Shown here one piece after another: positions 19,864 to 54,719 of a stretch of DNA of 64,000 nt. The notes beneath the pieces were generated by a model that was given only the letters and a program-made list of their open reading frames with translations, was not told the DNA's origin and made no database searches. Positions within the stretch are counted from its first letter, which is position 1; each line of letters starts with the position of its first letter. A program made the translations under genes and the position numbers. Source of the DNA: Lacipirellula parvula (GTDB lineage Bacteria > Planctomycetota > Planctomycetia > Pirellulales > Lacipirellulaceae); assembly GCF_009177095.1 (NCBI RefSeq), contig NZ_AP021861.1:5748501-5812500 (forward strand), given 5' to 3'.

Positions 19864-20833
19864 ATGGAGATTACAGACCTGCCCTCCGAACCGGCAGTGC
19901 GTGAATCAACTGCTGTAATATTCGTTCGGTTGACAATTGGCAGTCTCCTCTTTGCCACGGCGGCAATGAAGATTATTTCCCCCGCCGAATCGGCCACACT
20001 CGCCGTCGCATACCGAATCCCATCGCTCCTTACAGCCACGGTCGTACATGTGGAACTGGCGATTGCCGCCCTATTGATATTTGGCTGCTGGACCAGAAAA
20101 ACGCTGGCCACTTCCGCAGTCATGTTCGGCGTCTTTGGAGCCTTTTCGATCTACCGCGGCTCGATGGGCTATGAGTCTTGCGGTTGCTTCGGATCCCTTC
20201 AGGTTAATCCCTGGATCACTGCGACGCTCGACGGACTTATGCTCTTGCTCGCAGCGTGGGGAGCTTGGAAATCTACGCCTAGTCGCCGGAAAGCGATGCC
20301 GCCCCGACTCTACCGCGCCAGCGGTGTGTACGCCCTGGCGGCATTATTGGCGGCGGGTGTGCTGAATAGCCCCCCCCCCCCTGGAGGACGTTTTCCGTGA
20401 GGTCGGCGGATTAGTCATTCTTGAACCCGAGACGTGGATCGGAAGGCCGTTTCCGCTTGCCGCCCATCTATCGCCCGAAGTTCCACTTGACGAAGGAAGT
20501 TGGACGATTCTTATCTACCATCATGACTGCCCCCACTGCCAGGAAGCAGTGCCACAGTATGAACGATTGGCGATGAAAGATCGGAAACGTGGCGTCGCGC
20601 TTGTTGAAACACCACCCTACGAATCAGATCACGCAGCGGAAGGAGTTGCGCGCCATGTTCGGCTATCCGACGCCCGCGAGTGGTTTGTTCAGACGCCCGT
20701 CGAAATTCAAATTGCCGACGGAATTGTCGTCAGCACTTCGCTCGACCTACCGGCCATAGCAGAGGAGCCGTCGCCCCACTCCGCCATACGCTCATTGGAT
20801 ATTATTGTGTCCAGAAATTCGTTAACCGATTGA
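19864..20833 (+). pseudogene. MauE/DoxX-like membrane protein fused to thioredoxin-like domain, frameshifted at a C12 tract
   Basis: The first part (19864-20400, 178 codons) has four transmembrane helices and the CGCFG motif of MauE/DoxX-type proteins. At 20370-20381 lies a run of 12 Cs; the frame then ends at 20400. In the +1 frame the reading continues LEDVFREVGGLVILEPETW and gives a periplasmic thioredoxin-like domain with a CPHC active site (IYHHDCPHCQEA), ending at 20833. Eleven Cs would join them into one protein of about 322 residues. MauE and MauD (thioredoxin-like) cooperate in disulfide maturation of methylamine dehydrogenase, so a joined protein would be a disulfide oxidase or reductase system. 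It could be switchable, decayed or misread in the homopolymer. Confidence 0.75.
20370..20381 (+). repeat. Homopolymeric C12 tract at frameshift
   Basis: Twelve consecutive Cs located between the membrane and thioredoxin domains. Loss of one C (or of any 3n+1 Cs), or gain of two, restores a single reading frame. Such tracts are typical slipped-strand switches, and also typical homopolymer sequencing errors. Confidence 0.85.
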
Positions 20834-21591
20834 GTATAGTGCCGCGTGACCGTTTTCCAGCGGGCTACCAGATTGTAGTAAAAGACGTAATAGATGGCCC
20901 AAAGACCGTCGGTGAAGCGGATCTTCTTACCTTGAGCGACGTTGCGTGGAGCGTAAGCAACCGGTACTTCTAGCAGTCGAGCGTTGGTTTGGCTAGCTAG
21001 CGCCGTAATTTCGATCTCCATGCCGAACCGCTTGCTAGTGAGAGTCAGTTTTTTAAGAAGGGGGGCTCGAAACGCTTTATAACACGTCTCCACGTCGGTT
21101 AGCCGCCAGTGTGTAAAGCAATTGCTGACCGCCGTGATGACCCTGTTGCCCGCGTAGTGCCAGAAAGGCCAATCGCCTCGCGCTGGTCGATGCATGAGTC
21201 GGCTACCGTAGACAACGTCAGCCCGACCTAACTGTATCGCCTCAATGAGCCGCGGTATCTCGGTGGCATCGTATTCGAGATCGGCGTCTTGAATGACAAT
21301 TGCGCCCCCCTGAGCCTCTTCTATGCCTCTTCGCACGGCGGCCGTCTTGCCGGAGTTCGCTTCCAGGCGAATCGATCGAATTCGGTGGTCGGCTCGGGCC
21401 GCTTCGGCGATAATAGTTTTGGTCTGATCCGTTGAGCCATCATCTACGACAATTGCTTCCACATCCCCGGGGAGTTTCAGGACTCGCTCCAGCACTTCAC
21501 CCAACGTCGCCTCTTCGTTGTAAACTGGAATAATGACAGACAGCAGTGTTGATCCGTCGATTGAGCGTGAGGTGAAAGAGTCGTGCGACAT
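20707..21591 (-). CDS. Family 2 glycosyltransferase (dolichol/polyprenyl-phosphate hexosyltransferase-like)
   Basis: 294 residues. It starts with the GT-A fold signature LSVIIPVYNEEATLGEVL, then VDDGSTDQT, a nucleotide/metal site (QDADLEYDATE) and the acceptor-side motif DVETCYKAFR seen in DPM1-like enzymes. It should transfer a sugar from a nucleotide sugar to a polyprenyl phosphate on the inner face of the membrane, providing donors for membrane glycosyltransferases such as the one at 22589. No transmembrane helix. The last 127 bases overlap the thioredoxin domain coded on the other strand. Its start codon shares CATG with the divergent small gene. Confidence 0.9.
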   Translation of the reverse strand: MSHDSFTSRSIDGSTLLSVIIPVYNEEATLGEVLERVLKLPGDVEAIVVDDGSTDQTKTIIAEAARADHRIRSIRLEANSGKTAAVRRGIEEAQGGAIVIQDADLEYDATEIPRLIEAIQLGRADVVYGSRLMHRPARGDWPFWHYAGNRVITAVSNCFTHWRLTDVETCYKAFRAPLLKKLTLTSKRFGMEIEITALASQTNARLLEVPVAYAPRNVAQGKKIRFTDGLWAIYYVFYYNLVARWKTVTRHYTQSVNEFLDTIISNERMAEWGDGSSAMAGRSSEVLTTIPSAI

Positions 21592-22588: not shown

Positions 22589-24373
22589 ATGGAGAACGCC
22601 AATGCGTCCGGTTTGGTAAGAATCGCGAAAAATTCAGCATTCCACAACAAATTGGCTTCTCACCGGCTTAAAGCGATAGTCGCTTCCCTGCTAGGGATCC
22701 ACACTCTGCTACTTGCCTATGGGGCGGCGGTACATAGCCCAACTTATAATGAGCCGGCGCACCTCGTTGCAGGAATAAGCTATTGGAAGTTTCGCCGATT
22801 CGAAGTCTATCGCGTCAATCCGCCGTTAGTACGCCTTATCGCCGCGGTCCCCGCGATATTTGCCGGCTGTCAAACCGATTGGACAAGTTATTGGGAGGGC
22901 CCCGCAGCGAGACCCGAGATGGCTTTGGGAAGCGATTTCTGCGATGCAAACGGGCTTCGCACGTGTGAGCTGGTGACGCTCGCTAGATGGGCGTGCATAC
23001 CGTTCAGCTTGCTGGGCGGATACGTCTGTTTTCTGTGGGGCCGCGATCTATATGGGCCGACCTCTGGGCTTCTCGCCCTTACCCTATGGTGTTTTTGCCC
23101 CAATATCCTAGGGCATGGGCAGCTCATTACGAGCGATGTCTCTGCAACAGCCCTTAGTTTGGCAGCATGTTTCTCATTCTGGCGCTGGCTGAAGAAGCCA
23201 ACATGGCGATTAACCATTTCCAGCGGCGTTATCCTGGGCATTGCAGAGCTATCTAAAACGACGCTAATTGTACTCTACCCCCTTTGGCCTGTGCTTTGGC
23301 TGATTTATCGCTGTGCACACCGTGATAAAATTGGCCTACGCATCTGGCTTACGGAGTTTGCAAAACTCTGCGTTCGTGGCCTGATCGGACTGTACGTCGT
23401 CAACCTAGGCTACGGCTTTGAGGGGTCTTTCACGCAATTGGGGGATTACACCTTCGTAAGCGAAGCGTTGACCGGCCTCGAGGCGGAGAACGCAAAGACT
23501 GGCGGAAATAGGTTTGCGGAGACCTGGGTCGCGGACGTCCCGGTGCCGCTTCCGAAGAATTATGTCTGCGGCATCGACTTGCAACGAAAGGACTTCGAGC
23601 ACTTTGACAGCCAGTTTTATCTCGCAGGTACATGGTCCAAAACCGGCTGGTGGCACTACTATCTCTCCGCGTTGGCCCTAAAGGTTCCGCTAGGGACATT
23701 GATGCTGATTATTGCCGCAACGCTACGTGGGTCACCTGCAAGGCGAGCCGACGAATTCATCCTTCTTGCTCCAGCAACGGTCGTTTTCGCGCTTGTAAGC
23801 TCGCAGACTGGCATGAATATGCACTTTAGATATGCGATGCCTGCTCTCCCATTTCTATTCATCTGGGCTAGCCGCCTCGCAGCTGCCGCCTCATTCCTGG
23901 GACGGCGGGTCCAGAAATCTCGCGTGCCGCCAAATCTTCTGTCTGTTTTTATTATTTGCGCATTGAGTTGGTCTGTCGCAAGCAGCCTCTTTTGCTTTCC
24001 GCACACTCTGGCTTACTTCAATGAAATAACCGGAGGACCTAGGAATGGATGGCAATACCTCACAAGTAGCAATATCGATTGGGGGCAAGACTTGCTCTTG
24101 ATGAAGCGATGGCTGGAAAGCCACGGCACCGAACTGCCAACGCGATATTTCGTAACCAGCCCGGCACCGCTGGATTTTCTGGATCTGGAAGTAAAGCAAG
24201 CTTCGGAAGGGACCGAGGATGCCAACCAATCCCTGCCCCCAGGGCGTTATGTGGTAAGCGCTTGCGAGCTTATAGGTGTCATCGGCGAAAATCATAGATT
24301 CCGAGAACTTCGCCAGCGAATTCCAACGGCTCGGGTAGGATACTCCATATTTATTTACGACGTCACCGAGTGA
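22589..24373 (+). CDS. Membrane glycosyltransferase, PMT_2/GT39-ArnT-like
   Basis: 594 residues with about ten transmembrane helices. After the first helix comes the loop SPTYNEPAHLVAGISYW, where the TYNEP acidic motif corresponds to the catalytic D/E of the GT-C fold, followed by RVNPPLVRL. A large periplasmic loop with SNIDWGQDLLLMKRWL near residue 490 is frequent in planctomycete members. It should move a sugar from a polyprenyl-phosphate donor to an acceptor outside the cytoplasmic membrane. The family 2 glycosyltransferase upstream could make its donor. Acceptor unknown; the exported proteins downstream are possible targets (inference). Confidence 0.85.
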   Translation: MENANASGLVRIAKNSAFHNKLASHRLKAIVASLLGIHTLLLAYGAAVHSPTYNEPAHLVAGISYWKFRRFEVYRVNPPLVRLIAAVPAIFAGCQTDWTSYWEGPAARPEMALGSDFCDANGLRTCELVTLARWACIPFSLLGGYVCFLWGRDLYGPTSGLLALTLWCFCPNILGHGQLITSDVSATALSLAACFSFWRWLKKPTWRLTISSGVILGIAELSKTTLIVLYPLWPVLWLIYRCAHRDKIGLRIWLTEFAKLCVRGLIGLYVVNLGYGFEGSFTQLGDYTFVSEALTGLEAENAKTGGNRFAETWVADVPVPLPKNYVCGIDLQRKDFEHFDSQFYLAGTWSKTGWWHYYLSALALKVPLGTLMLIIAATLRGSPARRADEFILLAPATVVFALVSSQTGMNMHFRYAMPALPFLFIWASRLAAAASFLGRRVQKSRVPPNLLSVFIICALSWSVASSLFCFPHTLAYFNEITGGPRNGWQYLTSSNIDWGQDLLLMKRWLESHGTELPTRYFVTSPAPLDFLDLEVKQASEGTEDANQSLPPGRYVVSACELIGVIGENHRFRELRQRIPTARVGYSIFIYDVTE

Positions 24374-24844: not shown

Positions 24845-25366
24845 ATGCGGCAGGTTTACTCGAGAGCAATATTATTAGGTTCATCGCTGTCGGTCGCAGC
24901 CCTTGTGTATGCGTGCAGTCCAACAGCGTGGTCATCGGTTTTCGGCGCTGTCACCCAACAGGGCTGCAAAGGCGAGTGCTCAGTCGACTCAATGACTGTG
25001 GATGAATGCTTGCATTCACCCGCCCAGAACTGTGATCCTGCCACTGACCCTCACGCCTGCTGCGACGTTTCTCGGTGTACGCGCAACGAAGTGCGTTTTG
25101 CTAAATGTCAGGTTGGCAACAACCCTGAGGATCCTTGCAAAATCCACACCGACATGGACGACTGGTGGCGCAAGCTCACCATCCGGCGTGAGGAATGCGC
25201 AGACCAGGGCTATTCCAGCTTTGAGTATGTTCCCAATCAGACATGGTGCGTCTGGGATGGCCCTAGTAATGCGCGAGGCGAAACGCCTTGCAAAACTAGT
25301 GCTTGTAGCACGGGGCCAATCGTTTCGATTTCGACGTATGCAGGCAGGATGGTCTGCGGCGACTGA
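24845..25366 (+). CDS. Exported Cys-rich small protein (module A)
   Basis: 173 residues from ATG 24845, with GGAATC upstream. The N-terminus has a signal peptide (AILLGSSLSVAALVYA); a Cys follows directly (YAC), so it could be a lipoprotein, though Tyr at -2 is not ideal. The protein has 15 cysteines, with a CKGEC pair, a CC pair and many single Cys, suggesting several disulfide bonds. Family not recognised. It is parallel in position and character to the protein at 28702. A disulfide-type oxidase gene lies 4 kb upstream. Confidence 0.65.
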   Translation: MRQVYSRAILLGSSLSVAALVYACSPTAWSSVFGAVTQQGCKGECSVDSMTVDECLHSPAQNCDPATDPHACCDVSRCTRNEVRFAKCQVGNNPEDPCKIHTDMDDWWRKLTIRREECADQGYSSFEYVPNQTWCVWDGPSNARGETPCKTSACSTGPIVSISTYAGRMVCGD

Positions 25367-25755
25367 GAACCGCTGCCACAATAGGCGCGCAAGGGCTCGA
25401 CATCCGGCCTCGGCTTATATCGGCCGGTACGTATGAGCGGCAGCTTGATGGCCTCGGGTGGCGGAATGGTCGTTCCTGCCGGAATCCGGCTTGCTCCTCA
25501 GTTTACTCGCCATCGACAGAAGGGTAATGACCGCCAGCGATTGCCCTCGCACTTGATACCCGGAACTTGGCGCCCGCTGTCGAAGCTGCCGCGGCGGACA
25601 GTGTGCAGTGCTTAATCGCCCTAGCAATTCATTCCTACTGCATCTTTTTTCACGCTAAGTTCATTCAATTATGCCTAGTGAGGCTAATTGACATTGCGGA
25701 CGACGCAAGAGCGCCGCTTCACTAACAACATAAGCTGCGGTTTGCCAGCGACCGA
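25367..25755. other. Intergenic region, no supported gene
   Basis: About 390 bp. Short frames overlap on both strands without protein-like features. The 3' half is AT-richer (around 25615-25690) and is a likely promoter area for the following gene. Confidence 0.45.
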
Positions 25756-26982
25756 ATGCCTACTAAGTCCATCAGATTTATTGTTGCGGCTATTGGCGTC
25801 GCGATTGCATTGCCCTATGAACCAAACGCCATGGGTCAGGGGCGAGGGTCGGAGCCAGCAATCCACGCACTTGACGACAGCACCGTAGACGTCGAGAGCG
25901 TATTGCATCACTTGAGACAGTTTGACTCCGTCTTCGTAGCAGGATTTAAGGCCACTGCAATTGAAGACAGGATTGACCGACTTAGCCCTAGGGGTCCCTT
26001 CTTTAAGGTGAAAGCCCGTTGGACCTTCACTGCCGAGGCAGACAAAACAGCGTACCTTATGGAGATCGTAGATTACGAAACCCCCCATTATGTGCCGCCT
26101 TCCGAGCGGGAGTGGGACACGGATGGAATGCGATTTGGCAATGCTGCGAAACCCGCAGCCGTTGCAGGATCAGATGAGAGTATGGCTGCGACTGTGCGCG
26201 CGACGGAATGGGGTTACTGGGGCTCAGATGCTTGCGGAAATCATCAGATCGATCTCTCCCTTCTGGTGTCTAGAGAGGGCCAGAGGCAGGAGGTTGGAAA
26301 GCTTTACAACTCCTACGTCTACCCTCCTCGAGATCTCTCGCCCATTATGAATCAGCTGACCTATCAGTGGGCAATGGGCCGATTCTTCTCGGGTAGCATC
26401 GACAAGGTCCTGACGGTAGATAAGACTTCTAAGAATCGTCTTCATGTCACTGCGCTGGGTCGAGCTTACTCAGGCGCCAATGGCAAATGGGATCTTGAAA
26501 TTGAGCCGGCTGCGGCCTGGATCGTGCGAAAAGCCAAGTTCTATGCGGCCGCAAGTCCCGCAGTGGTTTTTGCGGAGATGGCGAATGAGGGCGTCACTTG
26601 GAGCGGCTCATACTGCATCCCGAAAGATTCGTACGTCAACTTCCTTGGCCCGCTTGAGGACATGAAGTCATCGCCCGGTGCAACAACGGTGCATCTCGCT
26701 TTTGAGCCTGCCGTCGAGGAGTTCGACAGCACGCTGTATAGCCGCTCCCAGGAGGCCGTACTACGGAGCAATGAGCCCAAGCTCACCCTTACGGACGGCC
26801 GTGTTTCCCCTGCGATAGTGTCGCAGCCCAACCTGCCAGACTTGAGCTTGGCACTGACTGAAGGCTCGTCAAACGCTGGGCGACAATGGTTTCTGACGGT
26901 AAACATAGTAGTAGTTGCCGGAATCCTGGCGGCGATCGCGTATAGAAGATGGTGGAAAAGCGACGGAATACCGCCCGCGTAA
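25756..26982 (+). CDS. LolA-like exported protein with C-terminal membrane anchor (module A)
   Basis: 408 residues. A signal peptide (FIVAAIGVAIALP) is followed by a beta-rich domain whose blocks (FFKVKARWTFTAEADKTAYL, WDLEIEPAAAWIVRKAKFY) recall LolA/LolB-like half-barrels. The C-terminus has the anchor RQWFLTVNIVVVAGILAAIA followed by YRRWWK. The same ending pattern, Arg-x-Trp then Asn, a hydrophobic run with LAAIA, aromatic and Arg/Lys, is found in the protein at 29306, so the two are paralogues in architecture. Probably anchored in the inner membrane facing the periplasm. The LolA-like assignment is from pattern only. Confidence 0.6.
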   Translation: MPTKSIRFIVAAIGVAIALPYEPNAMGQGRGSEPAIHALDDSTVDVESVLHHLRQFDSVFVAGFKATAIEDRIDRLSPRGPFFKVKARWTFTAEADKTAYLMEIVDYETPHYVPPSEREWDTDGMRFGNAAKPAAVAGSDESMAATVRATEWGYWGSDACGNHQIDLSLLVSREGQRQEVGKLYNSYVYPPRDLSPIMNQLTYQWAMGRFFSGSIDKVLTVDKTSKNRLHVTALGRAYSGANGKWDLEIEPAAAWIVRKAKFYAAASPAVVFAEMANEGVTWSGSYCIPKDSYVNFLGPLEDMKSSPGATTVHLAFEPAVEEFDSTLYSRSQEAVLRSNEPKLTLTDGRVSPAIVSQPNLPDLSLALTEGSSNAGRQWFLTVNIVVVAGILAAIAYRRWWKSDGIPPA

Positions 26983-26996
26983 AATGGAGAGCTACA

Positions 26997-27521
26997 GTGA
27001 TTCGACGACTGATTTTTGCGATCATCGCTGTCGCATGCGTGGCCTCCGCCACGCATGCGATGGATTCAGTGAGCAGCGAAGGAACGTGGCCGACCTCGTG
27101 GCCGAAGGAGCTAGAGGGGCTGCGCAAGCAAGCCATTTCCGTCGTGGGCGGCACTGACTGTCGAATTCACCACGAAATCACTTTCGACCAGCGCGATGCA
27201 TTCGAAGCGGCTTGGCCATTCATCCTCGCACTGAAATCGAAAGGAGCTCCACTGATCATTCTTCGAAGTCCAGACCCGAATATGAGTCGCGCGCTCGAAT
27301 CTGGTGTAAGGGTTTGGCCCGCCGTACGTAGTGCTCCGAAGAGTGAGGTGGCAACACCGCGAAACCCTAATGCATCGAACATGAGAGCGCGCTGGGCCAA
27401 TTGCACATTCATTGAACTAGTTGTAGACGGGAAGGTAGTTGACTTGAATCGCATTAGCTTGCCCGCAGATACCCCAATCATCGATCGCCGATTCGACGTC
27501 AAGAAAAGAATAGATAAATGA
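26997..27521 (+). CDS. Exported hypothetical protein (module A)
   Basis: 174 residues from GTG 26997, chosen because it is preceded by GGAGAG and yields a clean signal peptide (MIRRLIFAIIAVACVASATHA); the frame also runs from 26949 inside the previous gene. The mature part of about 150 residues has two cysteines. Family not recognised. Its stop overlaps the ATG of the DUF1573 gene (ATGA at 27518), and it starts 14 bp after the LolA-like gene, so the three form an operon. Confidence 0.6.
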   Translation: MIRRLIFAIIAVACVASATHAMDSVSSEGTWPTSWPKELEGLRKQAISVVGGTDCRIHHEITFDQRDAFEAAWPFILALKSKGAPLIILRSPDPNMSRALESGVRVWPAVRSAPKSEVATPRNPNASNMRARWANCTFIELVVDGKVVDLNRISLPADTPIIDRRFDVKKRIDK

Positions 27522-28654
27522 AAAAATACGGCGCTACTGTTGGAATAAATCGCAATATAAGGTGCCACCTTTCTTTTCATCTCATGGTCGCGATAGTGAC
27601 GATTGCGTGCGCGACCGGTTGTACTCCCTCGCAGCAGGAGAGCCTCTCGGCAGCTAAGCAACTGCAGACGGCGTCGTTGGTCTGTACTGAAGCCACATGG
27701 AACTTGGGGGAAGTACTGGTAAAAGGCAAGGCTCTCGACTTCACCCACGTTTTTCATGTCGAGAACCGTTCAACAAAGAGCATTAAGCTTGCTGATGTCC
27801 GATCTGATTGCGGGTGCGTAGTCGCCGATGACTACGAATCCGAGATCCCCCCAGGGCATTTTACAGATATTAGCGTCACTATTTCCGTGTTCGGGCCGCC
27901 GGGCGGTTTTCGAAAGACGATCATGGTGATAGACGACGACACTTCCCAGCCCCCCTGCGCGCTGTCGATAGTGGGCAGTCGAGCAGTTAGCGACCTTCTC
28001 TATTGTTATCCCGCCAAGATTAACTTTGGGAGGATCTGCCGCGGTGATTCGAAAACGAAAGAGATTCTAATCTCACGCTACGACGGCAGTGCGGTCAACT
28101 TTAGAACTTTCGTGAGCGACGAATGCCGCCTGAAGATCGACGGCAAACCAACTAGCCTCACGCGGAGCGACGAAATCTTGCGTCGAAATTGCGAATTGAT
28201 TCAGGTGCCACTAAAACTCGAACTGGATACGGAGCCTGTAGGTCTGTTTAAATCCAAGGCTAGAATCCTCACGGAGTCGACAGACGAGGGCACAGCCGAG
28301 CTTGAGATTGAATTGGAGGCTACTATTATCGACAAGGCCACGCCATGGGTTCCGTCTATATTTGTCGGCCGACTACCCGCTGACGAAATTATTGAACGCA
28401 GCCTTGTGGCGATCGACGACCTTGAACAGATTCCGCGCATCATCTCCGCTTCGTATAGCGGCGATGCTTCAATGCATACTGAAGTTATCGATAGCAACGA
28501 CCTCGACTCAACCAAGGCTCCTAGAGTTCGAATCACCCGAATTGGTGTTGGTTCCGGAAATCGCCTGGCCCGCGGGCGACTAACAATTGAAACGTCACGC
28601 TCGCCGGACGCGACGCCCGCCGTCGTTGAGATTTCGGCCTTTCTTTCTCCTTAA
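27518..28654 (+). CDS. DUF1573-type lipoprotein (module A)
   Basis: 378 residues. The N-terminus is a lipoprotein signal (VAIVTIACATGC with lipobox ATGC). Residues about 55-150 match DUF1573, an Ig-like domain: WNLGEV start, FHVENRS strand, then SDCGCVVADDYESEIPPG, where the DCGC and PPG elements are family hallmarks. The remainder is another pair of beta-sandwich-like domains of unknown type. DUF1573 is thought to be a periplasmic or outer-surface binding domain. Overlaps the upstream gene by four bases. Partner in module B is the C39-DUF1573 protein at 30494. Confidence 0.75.
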   Translation: MKKYGATVGINRNIRCHLSFHLMVAIVTIACATGCTPSQQESLSAAKQLQTASLVCTEATWNLGEVLVKGKALDFTHVFHVENRSTKSIKLADVRSDCGCVVADDYESEIPPGHFTDISVTISVFGPPGGFRKTIMVIDDDTSQPPCALSIVGSRAVSDLLYCYPAKINFGRICRGDSKTKEILISRYDGSAVNFRTFVSDECRLKIDGKPTSLTRSDEILRRNCELIQVPLKLELDTEPVGLFKSKARILTESTDEGTAELEIELEATIIDKATPWVPSIFVGRLPADEIIERSLVAIDDLEQIPRIISASYSGDASMHTEVIDSNDLDSTKAPRVRITRIGVGSGNRLARGRLTIETSRSPDATPAVVEISAFLSP

Positions 28655-28701
28655 TCTACCGTCCGAAGCTACCTTATTAGTCGTACTTTCAGGATTTTAC
28701 T

Positions 28702-29079
28702 ATGCGTAATTTGATTAAATGCACTTGCCTCGCTGCCATGCTTTACGCCACAGCAGTTGCCGCCGGAGCCGATCCGTTGCCCAACGCGACCTGCTTGCCC
28801 AAACGTACCTGGGCGTGCGCGGAGCAGGGCACGCTCTCTTGCAACTACCAGCAGTCGACTTGCAGCGGCGAATGTAAAACTTGCCTTGGTAATGATACGG
28901 TGCCTGCAAAGATGTGCTTCAGAAGCGAAGGCGGCGAATGCCCACCCGCCGCTTCGTATATTTGCGGCCAGCGGTTTGATAATGGCGTTTGCACCGATGT
29001 GGAGGGAAACTGCATCTGCGTGAATAACCTGGTCACGGGCGAAGACGGAACCTGCACGTTTTGGTCGTGCAACAATTAG
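28702..29079 (+). CDS. Exported Cys-rich small protein (module B)
   Basis: 125 residues with a signal peptide ending AVAAGA. The mature protein of about 100 residues has 14 cysteines in motifs such as CSGECKTC, GNCICVNN and FWSCNN at the C-terminus, so up to seven disulfides. Family not recognised; it is knottin- or EGF-like only in composition. It stands 47 bp after the DUF1573 lipoprotein gene and upstream of a LolA-like and a C39-DUF1573 gene, mirroring module A. Possible substrate of the C39-like peptidase or of the disulfide system (inference). Confidence 0.7.
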   Translation: MRNLIKCTCLAAMLYATAVAAGADPLPNATCLPKRTWACAEQGTLSCNYQQSTCSGECKTCLGNDTVPAKMCFRSEGGECPPAASYICGQRFDNGVCTDVEGNCICVNNLVTGEDGTCTFWSCNN

Positions 29080-29305
29080 CGTTGCTTGGCTTCTCTTGTC
29101 AACATGCTTCAGTTCGTAGGCACTCGCTCAGCAAGGCTGTAGCTGAAGGTTTTTCTGCCGCACCGAGGCCGCCTGCGGCGATTATCGATGGCAACCGGAA
29201 TGCGTGAGAAACCGCGTCACAACAGCTACTTCTGCCTCAGGCATTAGCCAGCAAGAACCATTCGATCGTTGCATTGGCTATTGATCTCATCGCGCGCTGA
29301 AAATC

Positions 29306-30463
29306 ATGCTAGCTACGATTGCGAAAACTGTGAAAGCTTCGAATTTCCGAGTTGCCCGACTGGCTGGGATGCACGCGGCAATCGTATGCACCGCGGCTTC
29401 GTCGCTCCTCGCGATGCCGCGCCCATGCGCAGCGCAGATGACCGCTCGGGACTTCGAAAGCTTATCTGAAACAGACAAGCGAGCCGTTCTGACGAGCGTG
29501 CTGCGGGAGCGCGAAATAGCAGTAAGAAATGTTAGGGCGAAGTCAATTTCACGGGTTCTCGTGCTGGAATATCGGGGCGATAAGCCTGGCCCCGTGCTTA
29601 GTGATAAGGTCGGTCGTTTCGAATGCGAAACTCGTCGCAAAGATGGGAATCGCTGGACGAGCGTCAACTGGTATCTTCCGACATCCGCTCACCCCAACCA
29701 GAAGGTTGTCACCTCGATAGACTCTTCCTCCGGCACCGCGCGGTCTGTAGCCGAGCAACATGGCTATGCGGGCATTTACGGCGCGGTCGACACCAAAGAA
29801 GACCAACTTGTCCGGTCAAGTCGATTTCAATACTGGTTCGACGGCAATTACGATAGGGCAGCGAACTTTCCAATTAGCTTCCTGCTCAAGAACATTGGGG
29901 CTGTCGAATTTGAAGGCACGAGCAGCGATGGCGGCGATATCAAGATATCTCTTCAAGTAGACCTTAAGGAGGGCACTCCTTACCACGATAAACGCACTAT
30001 CTGGCTCGATCCTCGCAGGGGCTTCATGCCCGTGCGAATGGAGTGGCATTGGGATTTCGAGTCCTCTCCGCCCTTAGACCAGGATTTGACGCTCGAAGTT
30101 AAGGCGATGAGCGAGGACAAAGGGGTGTGGTTTCCGACTCATTTCATTGAGACCGTTGTCTCGACACGCTCCATTGAAGAAGGTTTTTGCACTCAATACG
30201 AAACGACGGCGAGCGACATTCAAGTCGGGGTCGTGACCGCGGAGGACCTTAAGGTCCACTTCGGCAAGGAGGTGGAAATTCATGACCGAATTACGGGCAC
30301 GCGAACGAAAGCAGGTAAGGTCATTCAGTCGGGAGACAATCTCACGCCACTAGTCGCCGATGGAGATACTGCTCCACTCCGAACTTGGTGGGTGCCCCTT
30401 AATGTCACCCTCATTGCAGTGCTCCTGGCGGCTATTGCATGGCGCAAACTAAAACGCAGCTGA
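29306..30463 (+). CDS. LolA-like exported protein with C-terminal membrane anchor (module B)
   Basis: 385 residues. The N-terminal signal region ends near PRPCAA. The body is beta-rich, with the LolA-like block TIWLDPRRGFMPVRMEW and FEGTSSDGGDIKISLQV. The C-terminal anchor LRTWWVPLNVTLIAVLLAA then IAWRKLKR matches the anchor of the module A protein in spacing and in the Trp, Asn, LAAIA and basic elements. Probably a periplasm-facing membrane protein binding a hydrophobic or peptide ligand. Sequence similarity between the two bodies is low, so this is architecture-level paralogy. Confidence 0.6.
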   Translation: MLATIAKTVKASNFRVARLAGMHAAIVCTAASSLLAMPRPCAAQMTARDFESLSETDKRAVLTSVLREREIAVRNVRAKSISRVLVLEYRGDKPGPVLSDKVGRFECETRRKDGNRWTSVNWYLPTSAHPNQKVVTSIDSSSGTARSVAEQHGYAGIYGAVDTKEDQLVRSSRFQYWFDGNYDRAANFPISFLLKNIGAVEFEGTSSDGGDIKISLQVDLKEGTPYHDKRTIWLDPRRGFMPVRMEWHWDFESSPPLDQDLTLEVKAMSEDKGVWFPTHFIETVVSTRSIEEGFCTQYETTASDIQVGVVTAEDLKVHFGKEVEIHDRITGTRTKAGKVIQSGDNLTPLVADGDTAPLRTWWVPLNVTLIAVLLAAIAWRKLKRS

Positions 30464-30493
30464 TTGGTTACAAGATCTTAGGAAACTGCGATA

Positions 30494-32056
30494 GTGTTCA
30501 AAAAAGGTCTTTGCGTCGTGCTTGTCGGATGCCTGCTAGGTTTTGCCGCGAGATGGGGCGCAATTGCAAAGTATCGGCTAGCTTCGGAAATCAACCCGTC
30601 GCACGCAGATTATTACAAAGTGATCTGCGGGCCCATGAGCTTGTCATGCGCGATGGCGCGCCTTGGCGTGAACGCAACCGCGGCGCAGGTGGCAAAAACT
30701 TGTCGCGTGACCCCGTACGGTGTTTCCCTGATCGATTTAGCGGACTTCGCAGGCGGGCAGTCAACGATAGCCAACACCATTACAGAGTTAAGTTGGGATG
30801 ACCTGCGCAATATTAATGGCGTTGCGGTCCTGTTCGTCAACGGCGACCACTACATCTGCGTCGATCCACGAGTCGACAACTCCGACGGGAGCTTAAGGGT
30901 CTACGACGGCGACGCTCCTGCTCGATGGTGCTCTAGGACAGAATTGGAGAGAATCTGGACGGGCAAAGCGTTGGTGCTGGAGAAGCGACGTCCAGCTACG
31001 CCGAGCGATCGCCCCCAACTAGAATGGGACGAATGCTATATAGACCATGGACTTATCCCCCAGGGCGAAGCCCCCGTCTATGCATTCGAGTTTCACAATC
31101 GCGGCTGCCAGGATCTCATAGTTCAAGACATTAAAGTGAGTTGCGGTTGCACCAAGCCGACGCTTTCTCAAAAAAGAGTGGCCCCAGGCGAAACGGCTCG
31201 GATTGAAGTCAGCTTAAACCTCGAGGGCCGGGAGGGTCGCGTGCAGCAATCGGTATTCGTCGAGACTAATGACCCGATAATTCCGATATCTCTTTTAAGA
31301 GTGGCATGTGCGACTCCCAGGAGAAGAGCGATCTCGACTGAGGCAATGCGCTTCGACGACATCTCGCGGGGCGGTCAACTCAAGCAACAATTTATCGTCG
31401 CTGCCCCCGGCTTCGAAGGCATCGAAGTGCGAAATGCAAACTTCAATTTGGAGGGGAACGCGATTTCCGACCGAGACTTGTCTTGCTCAATATCGTGGAA
31501 GCCTATCCGTGCAGCAACCAAGATGTTGAGTAGTCGACTGGGATTCGCGGCGACGCCTGGCGACTATTTGATTGAAGTGGCGTTCGAGGCGCGGAACAAC
31601 TGTCCTATTGAGACTTTCCGCGGTGAGTTAGTAATCACAGTAGACAGCAACGCAGTTCCAGCAACCCATAGGGTTTCCATCGAAGGCAGTGTCGTTCAGG
31701 ACGCCTACGCGGCCCCGCAGGTGGCCCTCATTACCCTCGGTCCTGGTCCTAATGACGGCGGCGCAGCCGAAATTCGTTTGCGGAGCCGAACGCATAAGAG
31801 AATCCAAGTGAATAGGATAAACACGGGAGGCGTTCATGCCTTACAAATTGCGCTGAAGAAAGGAACAGGGGAACGCGAAGCGACGTATGTCGTAAGTACG
31901 CGCTTGCCCAAAATACTGCCCGGAGATGTTCCAGTCAGCGGCGAGGTCGTGTTCGAGCTGGAGGGCAATTCGCGGGTGACTGTGCCGGTCACGATATTTC
32001 GTGCTCCCGCAATTAAACTTCCGGAAGATCGATCGAATGGGTCGCAAGCTCAGTGA
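30494..32056 (+). CDS. C39-like peptidase fused to DUF1573 domains, 3' end replaced by IS
   Basis: 520 residues from GTG 30494. An N-terminal signal anchor (VLVGCLLGFAARWG) is followed by a papain-fold C39-like domain (about 35-160): catalytic Cys in KVICGPMSLSCAMARLG, His in NGDHYICVD, Asp in VYDGDAP. Residues about 175-280 are DUF1573 (DECYIDHGLIPQGE, then VSCGCTKP and VAPGETARIEV), and two more beta domains follow. C39 peptidases usually sit in bacteriocin exporters and cut after Gly-Gly leaders; here the domain is extracytoplasmic and has no ABC partner. The stop codon (32054-32056) is the first three bases of an IS3 element, so the native C-terminus, probably some 15 residues longer, was lost. 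Confidence 0.75.
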   Translation: MFKKGLCVVLVGCLLGFAARWGAIAKYRLASEINPSHADYYKVICGPMSLSCAMARLGVNATAAQVAKTCRVTPYGVSLIDLADFAGGQSTIANTITELSWDDLRNINGVAVLFVNGDHYICVDPRVDNSDGSLRVYDGDAPARWCSRTELERIWTGKALVLEKRRPATPSDRPQLEWDECYIDHGLIPQGEAPVYAFEFHNRGCQDLIVQDIKVSCGCTKPTLSQKRVAPGETARIEVSLNLEGREGRVQQSVFVETNDPIIPISLLRVACATPRRRAISTEAMRFDDISRGGQLKQQFIVAAPGFEGIEVRNANFNLEGNAISDRDLSCSISWKPIRAATKMLSSRLGFAATPGDYLIEVAFEARNNCPIETFRGELVITVDSNAVPATHRVSIEGSVVQDAYAAPQVALITLGPGPNDGGAAEIRLRSRTHKRIQVNRINTGGVHALQIALKKGTGEREATYVVSTRLPKILPGDVPVSGEVVFELEGNSRVTVPVTIFRAPAIKLPEDRSNGSQAQ

Positions 32057-32136
32057 CCTGCTACCCAAAAACGAGTCCGTCGGTTAGAAGACTGTGGAGG
32101 CGAGATCTGGCCAAGCGTTTTTTGGGAGGATTGGTC

Positions 32137-32403
32137 ATGAAGAAGTCTCAGTTCACGGATCAGCAGATTGCGTTTACCGTTCAACAGGCGGAGGCTGGCA
32201 TGGCGGTGGAGGAGGTCTGCCGGAAGCCTGGGATCACCCAGCAGACGTTCCACCGCTGGAAGAAGAAGTTCGCGGGCCTAGGCGTCGCCGAGGTGCGGCG
32301 TTTGAAGCTACTGGAAGAAGAGAACAAGAAGCTGAAGGCTCTGGTAGCCGACCTCAGCCTCGACAAGCAGATCTTGCAGGACGTCCTGTCAAAAAAGCTT
32401 TAA
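32137..32403 (+). CDS. IS3/IS407-type orfA
   Basis: 88 residues from ATG 32137, preceded by GGGAGG. Contains the IS3-type HTH (IAFTVQQAEAGMAVEEVCRK, then PGITQQTFHRWKKKF) and a leucine-rich coiled coil (KLLEEENKKLKALVADL). It ends DVLSKKL at TAA 32401. Binds the terminal repeats and joins orfB by frameshift. Confidence 0.9.
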   Translation: MKKSQFTDQQIAFTVQQAEAGMAVEEVCRKPGITQQTFHRWKKKFAGLGVAEVRRLKLLEEENKKLKALVADLSLDKQILQDVLSKKL

Positions 32404-33236
32404 GGCCTGCTCGTCGCCGCGAATTGGTCCGCGAAGCGGAGGCCCGCTACGGGATCAGCGAGCGGAAGGCGTGTCGAGTGCTCGGTTGCCCGCGCTCCAG
32501 CCAGCGCTACCGAGTTCAACGAGACGAGCAGGCCGCGTTGAGGATGCGGTTGAGAGAGTTGGCGGCGGCCCGCGTGCGGTACGGCTACCGGCGATTGCAC
32601 ATCCTAATGCAGCGCGAGGGCTGGCAGATCAACGCCAAGCGGGTCTATCGGCTGTATTGCGAGGAGCACCTGGGATTACGGACGCGAACTCCCAAGCGTC
32701 GAGTCAGTTGTCGAACGCGAGTCGGTCGACCGGCGGCAGAGCAGATCAACGACTGCTGGGCGATGGACTCCATGGCTGACGAACTGTTCGACGGCCGTCG
32801 GATCCGGGTGTTAACGATAGTCGATCACTTTTCACGTGAGAGCTTAGCGATAGAAGTCGGCCAGCGGTTCCGCGGGCAGGACGTCGCTCGCGTGCTCATG
32901 TGGATCGGCGCCGAGCGCGGTCTGCCCAAAACGATTCGCGTGGACAATGGAACCGAATTCACCTCGAAGGCGCTAGATCAATGGGCCTATGCCAACAGCG
33001 TCCAGCTTGACTTCAGTCGTCCTGGCAAGCCCACGGACAACGCCTTGATTGAATCCTTCAACGGCCGGCTCCGCGCCGAGTGCCTGAATGAAAACTGGTT
33101 CTTGTCCTTGGAGGGCGCCGAAGAGAAGATCAGCAACTGGCGGACAGACCACAACGAACATCGACCTCATAGCGTCCTGGGGAACCTGGCCCCCAAGGAG
33201 TTCGCTTCAACTTGCCAGGCATGCCTGGCAAGTTGA
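32389..33236 (+). CDS. IS3/IS407-type orfB transposase (DDE)
   Basis: Read after -1 frameshifting (KALRPARRRELVREAEARYG). HTH_21 region, then rve core with D in CWAMDSMADEL, D in IRVDNGTEF and E in NALIESFNGRLR, and the family ending EHRPHSVLGNLAPKEFA. Full length. The open frame also runs upstream out of phase from 32094, which is not coding. Confidence 0.9.
32391..32397 (+). promoter_or_regulatory. Programmed -1 frameshift heptamer A AAA AAG
   Basis: orfA codons read tcA AAA AAG CTT TAA. A-AAA-AAG is the classic IS3-family slippery site; slipping back one base gives AAA AAA GCT TTA, the orfB frame, just before the orfA stop. Confidence 0.85.
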
Positions 33237-33805: not shown

Positions 33806-34609
33806 ATGCCGATTCGCCGTGCACTAACGCTGATTGAAGTTCTCGTGGTAATCGCCATTATTGGCGTTTTAATTGGCCTGATTCTGCCAGCCGTGGAAAT
33901 GTCGCGTGAGTCGGCCCGTCGTACCACATGTGCCAACAATATGCGGCAATTGGGTATAGCCGCCAAGCTCCATCTTGATGCGCACCAGACGTTTCCGACT
34001 GGCGGATGGGGCCCAGGATGGATGGGGGATCCAGACGCTGGGTTCGGGACGCGTCAGCCGGGGGGATGGGTCTATAACGTTTTGCCGTTCATCGAGCAAC
34101 AATCGCTCCGCGAACAAGGAACTCGGCAAGCGCAACAAGAAAAACGAATTGCGATTGCAGCTGTGATGGCTACGCCGCTTGAAAGTTTTACTTGCCCTAG
34201 CCGTCGATTGCCTCGGCCCTATCCATTCCAAGGCGATCGAACTTTGAAGAATGCGATAGCTCCGGAGAAATGCGCCAAGAGCGATTATGCCGTCAATTCG
34301 AAAGTGTCCTATGAGAAGTCAGAGGTCATCGCCAGTGAAGTGCAGTTGCGCGGTCGAGGCATGAGTAATACGGTTTTTGCCGGCGAGAAGTCCGTCGCTT
34401 CGGATCACTACGTCGACGGGGCCGCCGCTGGGGATCAAAGAGCGATGTATCTCGGCGCCTGCGATGACGTCGGTCGAGCGCCCGGTGGAAATCCGCGGCA
34501 AGATAGCGGCGGCGGCAGCGGTTTTGGAAGCAGCCATCCGTCTGGATGCAATTTCGTCTATTGCGATGGATCGGTACGCTATATCAGCTACGACGAGTCG
34601 TTGGAATAA
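33806..34609 (+). CDS. DUF1559 prepilin-type protein
   Basis: 267 residues. The N-terminus is a type IV pilin-like methylation segment, RRALTLIEVLVVIAIIGVLI, with Glu at +5 and a short leader before Leu. This is followed by the family hallmarks RRTTCANNMRQLGIA, then LPFIEQQ, CPSRR and a C-terminal H-x9-DG motif (HPSGCNFVYCDGSVRYISYD). DUF1559 proteins are hugely expanded in planctomycetes and thought to form pseudopilus-like structures outside the inner membrane after prepilin peptidase cleavage. A second copy is at 35961. Confidence 0.92.
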   Translation: MPIRRALTLIEVLVVIAIIGVLIGLILPAVEMSRESARRTTCANNMRQLGIAAKLHLDAHQTFPTGGWGPGWMGDPDAGFGTRQPGGWVYNVLPFIEQQSLREQGTRQAQQEKRIAIAAVMATPLESFTCPSRRLPRPYPFQGDRTLKNAIAPEKCAKSDYAVNSKVSYEKSEVIASEVQLRGRGMSNTVFAGEKSVASDHYVDGAAAGDQRAMYLGACDDVGRAPGGNPRQDSGGGSGFGSSHPSGCNFVYCDGSVRYISYDESLE

Positions 34610-35812: not shown

Positions 35813-35960
35813 GGCCCATTCGTCGGTCTAGAACTGTCCTATCGCATCGACGTTGTAAGCAAGCGCTGTTCTTGTCTGTCGAGTAGCGCAACTACTTGAA
35901 TTGTGGAAAGCAATAAGTGGATCAGCCGTGATAACAAGAGAACCAGTCGCTGATGACCGA

Positions 35961-36917
35961 ATGGCGCTCACCGTCGTAGCATTGCGGGGATTCACGCTCG
36001 TTGAGCTTCTAATCGTTATCGCCATTATCGGGCTCTTACTGCAGCTAACGTTGCCCGCAGTAGAAATGGCGAGAGAGTCTGCGCGCGGCGCAACGTGTCA
36101 GAATAATCTTCGACAAACGGCCATGGCATTTCAGCTTCACCACGGAGCTCAAGGGCATTTTCCGTCGGGCGGTTGGGGATTCACTTGGGCTCCTGATCCT
36201 GACGGCGGATCCGGAAAAAAGCAACCAGGCGCCTGGGCGTACTCGCTGTTGCCTTATTGCGAACAGCAACAGCTCCATCGGCTTGGGGCGGGAGCCAGCG
36301 AGGCCGACAAACGGGGAGCCAACCGACGACGGATTGAAACGCCCGTCGCTATTTACTACTGTCCCTCCAGACGACTTCCGCGAGCCTATCGTATCAACAC
36401 TGGCATTCCCCATTCGCTTGAGCCGAAGGGCTCTGATCCGTTGGAAGTGGGCGGGCGCATCGACTACGCGGCGAACGGCGGCGGAAAAGGATACCGCTAC
36501 TGGAAAGCGGGGCCTGAAACGATCGCGGAAGCGGATAGGTACGAGTTCTTCGACCCTGCGGACGGGTTCGGCGTGGTTTACCCGAGGAGCGAGATTACAT
36601 TTGCCCAGCTCGTCGACGGCTCATCGAATACTTACTTGGCCGGTGAAAAGTCTCTCGACACTAGGCGATATACGGACGGACTCTCATTGGGCGACGACCA
36701 AGGGCCGTTTGTGTCTGATGATCGAGACAGCGTGCGCTATGCTGGTCCCGGTTACGCGTTGACTCCCGCGCAAGACGCAGAGGAGGACAACACGACGGCT
36801 TTTGGCAGCGCTCATCCGTCCGGATTTTTCATGTCGTTCTGCGACGGATCGGTCCAACGAATTCATTATGACGTCGATTCCGAAGTCCATGCGGCGCGCG
36901 CTAATATTGCCGAATGA
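35961..36917 (+). CDS. DUF1559 prepilin-type protein (second copy)
   Basis: 318 residues from ATG 35961 ([10 protein letters not shown]); an earlier frame from 35901 lacks a good signal. Prepilin segment [20 protein letters not shown] with the +5 Glu, then [36 protein letters not shown] and the terminal [20 protein letters not shown]. Shares the FPxGGWGxxWxxDPDxG block with the copy at 33806, so the two derive from a duplication. The additional middle part (about 150-200) is longer. Confidence 0.92.
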
Positions 36918-38069: not shown

Positions 38070-38981
38070 TCACTCTTCAAGAACGTCAAAAGAAACACCT
38101 GAAACGCCAGCGCCGACCTGCTTGGGACCAGGAGCGGCGACGATGACGAAGGTATCGCCGGGACTGGCGCCGGCTACGTCAAAGAAACTCATGTCGACGA
38201 AGCGATTCGGAGCCAGAATCTTACTGCCGCGCTCTACTCCGCCGACATGTTTCAAGAATACCTGCCCTGGCGAGACATCGACGTTGTCCAGTCCATCTGT
38301 CATCACTCCGACGCGAAATCGCTTCGGTACGCCAGAACCAACCGTGAACGACCAGCGATCGCATTTGACGCCAAGTTCAGGGGCATCGCCCTTCATGTCG
38401 GGCCCATCCAAGATGCCAATCTTCAAATAAGGAACGACGCTGGTTGCATTCGTTGAATTTTTTACTGGGTAGTTTTTTCCGTCGAACGTATTCCGTCGCT
38501 CGCCATGCTGAGAACGTGGATCGTCCACGAGTGCATACGACCAACCGCCAGCCATCCGAGTACACAGGACATCCCAGTGATTAACAAAGCTGGGCAGAGA
38601 AGCAATGGTTGGGTAGTCTCGTGAACTACTTAGATGCCCATGCCGCGGCAACTCCTCTATGGCAGCATTTGGAGCGGGGCCTGCGTTTGCGTCCGGAAAG
38701 CTGAATCTAGTGGCAAATAAAACATAGCCGTCTTCACCATAGTACCTGTCTCCGTCGCGCTCTATCGCATAGACGTTCTCTTCAGAATTGCTGCGCCACG
38801 GGACGATGTTCTCTTGAGGAAAAAGGTAAGTCGGGTAGAGCGTTCCGCCAATGTCTTCGTGAGACCCAACATAAGAAATCGTCGCTCGAGTCTGTGAAGG
38901 GCCCTTGATTAACCAACGAATTAGCGCCGGCAGAATTATACCAGAAGTAATGATAACAGCCACGACAATCCGTCCGTTCAT
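38070..38981 (-). CDS. Membrane-anchored hypothetical protein
   Basis: 303 residues from ATG 38981, preceded by GGGGAGACG at good spacing; the open frame continues to 39362 into the IS remnant and is not used. One N-terminal transmembrane helix (IVVAVIITSGIILPALIRWL), the rest outside. The C-terminus (about 215-300) is a beta-type domain with FTVGSGVPKRFRVGVMTDG and FDVAGASPGDTFVIVA. Family not recognised. Convergent with the hydrolase gene, 29 bp apart. Confidence 0.65.
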   Translation of the reverse strand: MNGRIVVAVIITSGIILPALIRWLIKGPSQTRATISYVGSHEDIGGTLYPTYLFPQENIVPWRSNSEENVYAIERDGDRYYGEDGYVLFATRFSFPDANAGPAPNAAIEELPRHGHLSSSRDYPTIASLPSFVNHWDVLCTRMAGGWSYALVDDPRSQHGERRNTFDGKNYPVKNSTNATSVVPYLKIGILDGPDMKGDAPELGVKCDRWSFTVGSGVPKRFRVGVMTDGLDNVDVSPGQVFLKHVGGVERGSKILAPNRFVDMSFFDVAGASPGDTFVIVAAPGPKQVGAGVSGVSFDVLEE

Positions 38982-39183
38982 TAATCGTCTCCCCGTCCAC
39001 CTTCTGCACAGCAGGAATAAGAGTAGCTTTAGGCATTTAATAGAATACTGGATTGTCGTATGGGCGACCATCTCCGGATAGAAATGCTGCAAGTAATGCG
39101 AAAATTGTGCAGCGTGGTCGAATTCGCAGCATTGAATCGTTGCGGTGGAGGGTCGGGGAGTGACAATTGCTTTTCTGATTGTT

Positions 39184-39417
39184 TGACGTGCCCCCTTCAA
39201 AAGAGCCCGCGATTGGAGCGAGAATCCGGGTTGTGGGCGCAAGTCGAAGGAGAGCAATCCGATGCTTCGAGGAACGAAGTTCAAGCCGGAAGAGATCATC
39301 TCGAAGCTGCGTGAGGCCGCGGTGGAACTGGCTCGGGGGAAGAAGATTCCCGAATTCTGCAAGCAGATCGGCGTGACGGATCAGACGTACTACCTCTGGA
39401 AGAAGGAGTATGGCGGC
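39184..39417 (+). mobile_element. IS3 left-end remnant, inverted relative to the 17907 copy
   Basis: Begins with the same terminal sequence TGACGTGCCCCCTTCAAAAG as the 17907-19034 element, then a near-identical leader, then the first 52 codons of orfA. Similarity ends at about 39417. Together with the other copy it brackets 20 kb with left ends facing inwards. Confidence 0.8.
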
Positions 39418-46347: not shown

Positions 46348-46478
46348 TCGGAATCACGATGAGCCGACGCCGATTCAGCTGTCATCCGTCGGGTCGGACA
46401 TGAGCGACATCGATCAGATCCGGTCTGCCTGATTGCCGGCGGCGATTGCCCAAGCCTCGTTTCCTTGCAGAGTGGCCA

Positions 46479-48902: not shown

Positions 48903-48904
48903 GT

Positions 48905-54718: not shown

Positions 54719-54719
54719 A

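Follow-up and report, generated by a model that had tools for sequence, protein, structure and literature searches.

A candidate system for processing disulfide-rich exported proteins around a stand-alone C39 peptidase of Lacipirellula parvula

Gene content of the locus

This work concerns a group of genes, designated A1 to A4 and B1 to B3, in a stretch of 64,000 nucleotides from the planctomycete Lacipirellula parvula (contig NZ_AP021861.1, positions 5,748,501 to 5,812,500; the whole stretch is called the window). The genes encode Cys-rich exported proteins, LolA-like proteins and DUF1573 proteins, one of which also carries a peptidase domain of family C39, and they are discussed here as a possible apparatus for the processing of disulfide-rich proteins outside the cytoplasm. 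The host genome consists of one contig of 6.9 Mb and is 96% complete. All genes from A1 to B3 lie where the original prediction, made from the sequence letters alone, had placed them (Table 1).

Table 1. Genes and sites of the locus and its neighbourhood (positions in the window)
Feature	Position	Strand	Remarks
A1, Cys-rich exported precursor	24845-25366	+	Hydrophobic N-terminal segment, GA site, 14-Cys mature region
A1, predicted leader cleavage site V-F-G-A	24938-24949	+	Residues 32-35, predicted cut after A35
A2, LolA/LolB-fold protein	25756-26982	+	C-terminal membrane anchor; AlphaFold fold match, best Z 10.7
A3, small protein	26949-27521	+	N-terminal hydrophobic segment; start uncertain
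A4, DUF1573 protein	27518-28654	+	Probable lipoprotein (ATGC box read from sequence); PF07610 E 2.3e-13
B1, second Cys-rich exported protein	28702-29079	+	Ordinary signal peptide by eye
B2, second LolA-like protein	29306-30463	+	C-terminal anchor; profile match
B3, C39 peptidase-DUF1573 protein	30494-32056	+	N-terminal hydrophobic segment, C39 peptidase domain (~27-165), Ig-like domains including DUF1573
B3, catalytic Cys45 codon	30626-30628	+	
B3, catalytic His119 codon	30848-30850	+	
B3, catalytic Asp138 codon	30905-30907	+	
GT39-like (PMT_2) membrane glycosyltransferase	22589-24373	+	Recurrent neighbour; PF13231 E 5.4e-9
GT2 glycosyltransferase	20707-21591	-	
MauE reading frame	19864-20400	+	Interrupted relative to the L045 copy
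DUF1559 prepilin-like protein	33806-34609	+	
DUF1559 prepilin-like protein, second copy	35901-36917		
Insertion sequence	32053-33236	+	Separates the module from the DUF1559 genes; sequence only; presumably IS3-like

A1 contains 15 Cys residues, 14 of them past the predicted cleavage site, and B1 contains 16, of which 14 follow the signal peptide. This agrees with the 15 and 14 originally counted for two exported Cys-rich proteins, the figure for B1 being the count after the signal peptide. Relatedness between A1 and B1 was undetectable. A1, A2, B1 and B2 were each without a family match in Pfam; A3 gave a sub-threshold match to DUF3054 in Pfam and had no BLAST homologue among the loci gathered. 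Homologues of A1 were found in the loci L042, L061, L063, L064 (two), L065 and L067, which are described below. No homologue of B1 was detected, a search of 59 relatives matching its own genome only (1/59).

One module with a second set inside

The window had first been read as two parallel modules, A and B, each made up of a Cys-rich, a LolA-like and a DUF1573 protein. The leader site and the GT39, GT2 and MauE neighbours had no place in it. This reading did not survive comparison with other genomes. Genes for a Cys-rich, a LolA-like and a C39-DUF1573 protein, homologous to A1, A2 and B3, are contiguous in six other loci (L042, L061, L062, L063, L064 and L067; in L062 the contig ends within the Cys-rich gene). 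Nor is A1 detectably related to B1. Duplication of one module was rejected on the same grounds. The window is best read as a first module made up of A1, A2 and B3, within which A4, B1 and B2 lie as a second set. The first module of L061 is followed by a second set, which encodes a DUF1573 protein, a Cys-rich protein with a plain signal peptide and a LolA-like protein. B1 and B2 showed no pairwise similarity to this set and A4 matched it in the DUF1573 domain only (E 2e-6, 47 residues; the figure of 30% comes from a forced alignment). As judged from the sequences, the likeness between A4-B1-B2 and the L061 set is limited to the kinds of gene and their order.

Recurrence of the gene set

Searched alone, A2 matched 3 of 59 relatives (its own genome included, two matches being weak) and 2 of the 294 genomes of a phylum sample, and B2 matched 1 of 43, which was its own genome. 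Two weak matches to A2 were discarded: the one in G001 seems to come from an antisense frame, the one in G018 from a remote LolA-like gene without an adjoining module. B3 matched 38 of the 43 genomes of its own family; in genomes other than its own these matches were restricted to the DUF1573 part, from residue 160 onwards. A scan of the contig collection with the B3 pair gave no confirmed relative. A profile built from A2 and its homologue in G134 found 9 of the 397 genomes of the class, its own included.

Beyond this locus, the gene set occurs in members of two further planctomycete families. L042, in a genome (G134) from another family, is a compact module of Cys-rich, LolA-like and C39-DUF1573 genes with identities of 39% for B3, 38-39% for A2 and about 29% for A1. 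The third-position GC of this module is 0.26-0.36, against roughly 0.4-0.6 in most nearby genes, and the low value suggests acquisition by recent transfer. Complete or partial modules were also found in G615 (L061 to L063, on three contigs), G578 (L064), G506 (L065 and L066) and G454 (L067), with no C39 in L065; the neighbourhoods L044, L060, L068 and L069 contained no module. In L066 (1964-5508) C39 and DUF1573 are separate genes, preceded by those for a Cys-rich protein and another, second LolA-like one. A GT39-like gene accompanies the genes in six of nine loci (the window, L061 and L063 to L066); a fragment of it was seen in L067 and none in L042 or on the 3.8 kb contig L062.

For a wider sample two anchor genes were used. 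A scan with the GT39 family over contigs of 84,980 species supplied the best 79 of 154 relatives, which were reduced to 74 loci by removal of copies. Sixty C39 regions were picked by hand from the upper part of a list of profile matches as non-transporter frames of less than 620 amino acids; this choice was not exhaustive (one frame of G402 was passed over) and resulted in 57 distinct loci. The copies L106, L107, L108, L112, L121, L159, L186 and L192 were removed before counting.

Within 5 kb, LolA-like genes were found in 48 of the 74 GT39 loci, DUF1573 in 32, DUF1559 in 28, a Cys-rich open reading frame (ORF) with a hydrophobic start in 24, GT2 in 15, and C39 and MauE in 10 each. The corresponding numbers for the 57 stand-alone C39 loci were 39 for LolA-like, 30 for DUF1559, 26 for DUF1573, 25 for Cys-rich, 14 for GT39, 6 for MauE and 5 for GT2; both MauE counts rest on a profile from one sequence. 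A LolA-like profile from which the membrane anchor had been left out still found 46 of the 74 GT39 loci and 34 of the 57 C39 loci. The density of LolA-like genes around C39 was 1.4 per 10 kb within 2 kb, 0.8 at 2-4 kb and 0.06 at 4-6 kb. Within 2 kb of C39 the densities of the three kinds (LolA-like, DUF1573 and Cys-rich) were 0.65-1.4 per 10 kb; at 4-6 kb they were down to 0.06, and no ORF of these kinds was found at 6-8 kb, where just 33 kb of sequence was covered. A further 103 kb of sequence contained one LolA-like and two DUF1573 genes, all from loci that had been fetched for the family in question, and no Cys-rich ORF of this type. Order was preserved as well: in 50 of 60 pairs on the same strand, the LolA-like gene nearest to a Cys-rich gene lay downstream of it, with a median gap of 193 bases, the Cys-rich candidates having been picked on the strand of the anchor gene.

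It might be argued that the two blocks are coincidental neighbours drawn from common planctomycete families. DUF1573, DUF1559 and LolA-like genes are indeed widespread, and the host genome alone has five DUF1573 genes. However, the co-occurrence counts contradict this explanation, as do the distance profiles, the contiguous modules of the six other loci and the upstream position of the Cys-rich gene, and we consider it most improbable. The arrangement is more than chance. The parts had originally been suspected of forming a working set on the strength of this one locus; the three families do occur together far from it, in C39 and in GT39 loci alike.

Two GT39 contigs, L126 and L118, are filed under gammaproteobacterial metagenome-assembled genomes. 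L126 also carries C39, DUF1573 and a Cys-rich gene with a GG leader. These are either mis-binned planctomycete contigs or cases of transfer.

The C39 peptidase and the DUF1573 proteins

C39 peptidases have mostly been described as cytoplasmic domains of ABC (ATP-binding cassette) transporters that trim peptides during export. B3 matched the family Peptidase_C39 (PF03412) with 34.6 bits (cut-off 22, E 2e-8), and DUF1573 (PF07610, cut-off 26.1) was matched by A4 with 50.4 bits and by B3 with 74.9 bits (E 5.3e-21). When compared with solved structures, the profile of the C39 family found the C39 domains of ComA (E 3e-6), PCAT1 and HlyB. Among 78 C39 proteins examined, the catalytic Cys was present in all 75 that aligned at this position, the His in 56 of 66 and the Asp in 56 of 62, with Glu in 4 more; B3 has all three residues. 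A hydrophobic segment precedes the catalytic Cys in 67 of the 78 proteins, which suggests that the stand-alone C39 proteins are exported by means of it. In the AlphaFold model of B3, whose overall confidence is moderate (66), a C39 domain (block pLDDT, the per-residue confidence, mostly 72-89) is followed by Ig-like domains, and these match HYDIN-type chains of the cilium. An ABC domain was absent from B3 in a Pfam scan. The host genome has no PF03412 match other than B3, so the scan revealed no C39 attached to a transporter that might process A1.

Leaders of the Cys-rich precursors

In a first listing of precursors near C39 genes, GG or GA was seen in many of them just ahead of the Cys-rich part and behind a hydrophobic segment. 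Examples of such leaders are LSAAEMRMIRGG (L126) from the first set and LSDRELAQVRGG (L149), LDDAQLSGLRGG (L157) and LTIDELNQSRGG (L205) from a later set, which was fetched after the idea had been formed. The stretch from the hydrophobic segment to the first Cys was searched for the motif [VILMFYW]xG[GAS], a pattern drawn up once both sets had been inspected visually. It was present in 30 of 43 C39-linked precursors and in 2 of 26 C39-less ones (Fisher p 2.9e-7). Counted by locus, the numbers were 29/40 and 2/21 (p 2.4e-6), and the later set contributed 25 of 32. Shuffled segments gave an expectation of 8.6 of 43 (maximum 19 in 500 shuffles) and of 2.2 of 26 for the C39-less group, so segment length does not explain the excess of the motif.

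Under the filters of this test 30 of the 57 C39 loci gave a Cys-rich candidate. The motif count left out A1 of the window (more than 4.5 kb from C39; VFGA), the precursor of L063 (no K or R before the hydrophobic segment; VYGA) and A1 of L061 (overlapping the LolA-like frame; VTGA). Precursors of L155, L184, L200, L205 and L207 were also filtered out, yet GG or GA sites are visible in them.

Preferences were also found at positions that the pattern leaves free (n = 30). Position -12 is hydrophobic in 70%, -8 is Glu in 12 of 30, and -7 is hydrophobic, mostly Ala, in 60%. So far as sequence can tell, these positions agree with the classic double-glycine leader, which has been given the form LSX2ELX2IXGG (PMC3897388). 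As a group, the precursors therefore seem to carry leaders of the double-glycine type. In the A1 family 13 columns are invariant in all 8 members, namely 11 Cys, the Gly at -2 and one Asn, while position -1 is A in five members and otherwise G, T or R. The residue at -3 of the 30 motif-bearing precursors is R, F, Q or K in 16, and the site lies about 21 residues (median) past the hydrophobic 15-mer. Both features are unlike those of signal peptidase I sites.

These data also bear on the idea that the C39 peptidase acts on some other substrate (as may be the case in the Fap system of Pseudomonas), that GG or GA is part of a linker and that signal peptidase I makes the cut. In its favour, the target of another exported C39 peptidase, FapD, was called unclear in a 2017 paper (PMC5557850). 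Moreover, the motif is absent from 13 of the 43 precursors, and the existence of C39-less loci indicates that a Cys-rich protein can do without C39. Nevertheless, it is rather unlikely in our opinion: the motif tracks the presence of C39, lies above its shuffled expectation and is accompanied by the unimposed preferences at -12, -8 and -7, and neither the -3 residues nor the spacing look like those of signal peptidase I.

Alternatively, the Cys-rich proteins might be toxins resembling bacteriocins or microcins. They have double-glycine-type leaders, are small and rich in Cys, and their mature regions are mutually unrelated (5 related pairs among 903). A comparison of the Cys-rich precursors with Pfam gave no family that made sense, and none of ten precursors reached the cut-off of an NCBIfam family, although two of them had weak sub-threshold matches to bacteriocin-like families; A1 and B1 matched no family model. 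However, a peptidase-containing transporter is missing, with just one ABC-ATPase-like ORF around the 57 C39 loci and B3 as the only C39 match of the host genome. The N-terminal hydrophobic segment is unlike the substrates of such transporters, the envelope-related neighbours (LolA-like, DUF1573, GT39) would be unusual for toxins, and no immunity genes were noticed, though no dedicated search for them was made. We therefore think a toxin function improbable.

A precursor with a leader ending in LSGG was also seen in L113 (13602-14141), where there is no C39 match at E 1e-3 and a weak partial one at E 0.045.

Cysteine parity

If the mature domains held all their cysteines in disulfides, their Cys number should be even. 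Whole C39-linked precursors had an even number in 20 of 43 cases, as by chance. After removal of the leader the number was even in 35 of 43 (p 4.2e-5 against one half; p 0.002 against a baseline of 60% from control ORFs). Among the 21 precursors whose leader has an odd Cys count, its removal leaves an even number in 18. This would fit mature domains with all cysteines paired.

The LolA-like proteins

The AlphaFold model of A2 (mean pLDDT 63) has the LolA/LolB fold, with Z scores of 10.7 to 4z48 (DUF1329), 10.3 to 3buu (LolA superfamily) and 10.0 to LolB (9tpm). B2 matched a LolA-like profile, built without B2 and without the anchor, at E 3.7e-8, and the hhalign comparison of A2 with B2 gave E 1.3e-5. 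Their pairwise similarity is found in the C-terminal half, mostly in the anchor region, and both end in the same kind of membrane helix. A2 and B2 thus appear to belong to one LolA-like family. Unrelated folds in the two blocks had been named as a finding that would refute the original idea; for A2, by its model, and B2, by its profile match, this partial comparison points to a common fold. The LolA-like profile of Pfam matched neither A2 nor B2 and barely reached one of 55 members of the family (E 0.0064).

The fear that our LolA-like profile rests on the membrane anchor was dismissed, because the anchor-free version keeps 106 of 115 labelled ORFs and 38 of 45 in the later set. A conserved Asn near the start of the C-terminal helix occurs in 67 of 108 LolA-like proteins with a helix, compared with 41 of 125 control C-terminal helices. 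An Asn-bearing tail as a common sorting signal was considered, and this difference was judged too weak for it. In L127 (5887-9255) a LolA-like and a DUF1573 protein are fused in a product of 953 amino acids, in a locus without a C39 match. The Cys-rich precursor encoded next to this fusion keeps a leader-like VPDSA stretch and lacks GG.

A possible pathway

The explanation that we favour, and hold to be probable, is that the Cys-rich products are Sec-exported disulfide-rich proteins whose leader is cut by the C39 peptidase outside the cytoplasm. The hydrophobic segment of A1 would direct the precursor to the Sec pathway, and a double-glycine-type leader ending in GA would come next. B3, anchored by a hydrophobic segment of its own, would sit on the outer side of the inner membrane, and after translocation its C39 domain would cut behind GA, leaving a mature domain with 14 Cys paired as disulfides. 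Judging from their families and their place in the locus, the remaining proteins might assist. The Ig-like domains of the DUF1573 protein and the anchored A2 could bind the substrate or carry it across the envelope, MauE could give redox help, together with a DUF1573-thioredoxin protein encoded in a sister locus, and the PMT-type GT39 with GT2 could O-glycosylate the product. A4, B1 and B2 would be a second set, serving a Cys-rich protein with an ordinary signal peptide. Extended to planctomycetes in general, this would be a pathway for Sec-exported, disulfide-rich and probably glycosylated surface proteins, in which C39 removes a double-glycine leader and LolA-fold and DUF1573 proteins act as envelope carriers; to this broader version we lean only slightly. 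An export, processing or surface-display pathway for disulfide-rich peptides had been proposed at the outset. Processing of disulfide-rich exported proteins is now the best reading.

The sister locus, L045 (4346000-4363000 of the same genome), contains at 3304-12965 genes for MauE, GT2, two DUF1559 proteins, a TPR protein with a C-terminal anchor and the DUF1573-thioredoxin protein, together with an exported protein of 589 residues and 49 Cys. It has no C39, since B3 is the only match in the genome. MauE and thioredoxin recall the mau cluster, where they mature a disulfide-rich dehydrogenase subunit, and the whole system might accordingly be concerned with maturation of a cofactor-bearing or redox protein. 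The combination in L045 and the MauE genes within 5 kb of 10 of the 74 GT39 and 6 of the 57 C39 loci speak for this possibility. On the other hand, A1 had no match among all PDB chains, methylamine dehydrogenase included, at E up to 1, no catalytic subunit was recognised among the window genes scanned, and the cargo sequences are mutually unrelated. We see little likelihood in it.

Several observations weigh against leader cleavage by C39 as proposed here. Of the precursors in the discovery set, no more than 5 of 11 have the motif, and those without it in the full set have been mentioned. The leader of A1 itself is weak, agreeing with the classic form in Val at -4, Trp at -7 and GA but having no LSxxE, and in the A1 family the site is GR in one member and GT in another. 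The GG site of L113 belongs to a C39-less locus and was excluded from both groups by the hydrophobicity filter. Furthermore, the distance limit was not the same for the C39-linked and C39-less groups (4.5 kb and 1 kb), and contig ends truncate some loci.

The parity data have their own weaknesses. The change was smaller in the later set (from 18 to 25 of 32; p 0.02 against the 60% baseline), C39-less precursors went from 14 to 20 of 26 after removal of the signal (p 0.06 against the baseline), and unselected Cys-containing control ORFs were even in 178 of 297. Because the C39-less precursors and the controls are also mostly even, parity points to disulfides and to removal of an N-terminal segment and is silent on which enzyme removes it. 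Signal peptidase I could cut some of the precursors first, and cleavage by C39 is a prediction from sequence. As for the accessory functions, it is the gene neighbourhood that hints at glycosylation, and the MauE frame of the window is interrupted, with a stretch resembling the C-terminal part in another frame at 20549-20800; the L045 copy is intact. DUF1559 genes were considered as a part of the module, being near 30 of the 57 C39 loci, yet were rejected as their density does not fall with distance from C39 (0.51, 0.64, 0.56 and 1.21 per 10 kb).

Comparison with known systems

Neither C39 peptidases nor double-glycine leaders are new, and a periplasmic C39 has been described before. With ComA, PCAT1 and the bacteriocin exporters the present system would share the C39 domain and the leader motif. 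It differs from peptidase-containing ABC transporters in that no ABC domain is fused to C39, nor is one encoded nearby except in a single locus. In addition, the leader is preceded by a hydrophobic segment, as is the C39 domain in most of the proteins. A2 resembles the LolA/LolB superfamily in its modelled fold, with Z scores of about 10, but has a C-terminal membrane anchor in place of being a free or lipid-anchored carrier. The mau cluster (MauE/MauD, methylamine dehydrogenase) is similar in that MauE stands beside an exported disulfide-rich protein. It is dissimilar in that here no dehydrogenase was recognised, MauE occurs in a minority of loci, and C39, DUF1573 and LolA-like parts are added.

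The closest parallel is FapD of the functional amyloid system Fap of Pseudomonas, a Sec-exported C39 peptidase that is active in the periplasm and the one periplasmic C39 met with in the literature searched (PMC5557850). Exported partner proteins require it for their secretion, which the C38A mutation abolishes, and the paper describes the target as unclear and this class of C39 as yet to be characterised (PMC5557850). The Fap proteins, according to the same source, are without canonical C39 sites (PMC5557850). Like FapD, the C39 proteins discussed here have a putative export segment, in most cases, and no ABC transporter attached. Unlike the Fap proteins, the candidate substrates have double-glycine-type leaders and are Cys-rich, not rich in Asn and Gln (N/Q); N/Q-rich amyloid repeats were not seen in them by eye. 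Also unlike Fap, C39 is often fused to DUF1573 or near it and is accompanied by LolA-like and glycosyltransferase genes. A literature search, made largely at the level of listings, gave no description of Sec-exported double-glycine precursors beside a stand-alone C39 with LolA-fold and DUF1573 proteins, and the pathway seems to be undescribed.

If our explanation is correct, the Cys-rich precursors would be the first canonical substrates for the uncharacterised periplasmic class of C39 peptidases. A role would be given to unnamed planctomycete families (DUF1573 fusions and anchored LolA-fold proteins), and a class of disulfide-rich envelope proteins would emerge which annotation misses because the mature parts share no sequence. 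The question of the C39 substrate could be addressed directly in vitro, since there are dozens of stand-alone C39 genes in planctomycete genomes and about half of the loci sampled have a detectable gene for an exported Cys-rich precursor beside them, mostly one bearing a leader.

Other genes of the window

A TPR gene flanks the module together with the two DUF1559 genes. Farther downstream, a papain-family protein is encoded at 40753-41655, and the region 46446-57560 may be a biosynthetic cluster, as it encodes tyrosine-decarboxylase-like, GMC oxidoreductase, radical SAM and FAD-dependent halogenase-like proteins. Finally, a closely similar stretch near the N-terminus (MISSGLNFVPR...) is found in two otherwise different proteins, one in the window (38070-39362) and one in L045 (12225-12965); perhaps it is a recombination scar or reflects a common upstream region.

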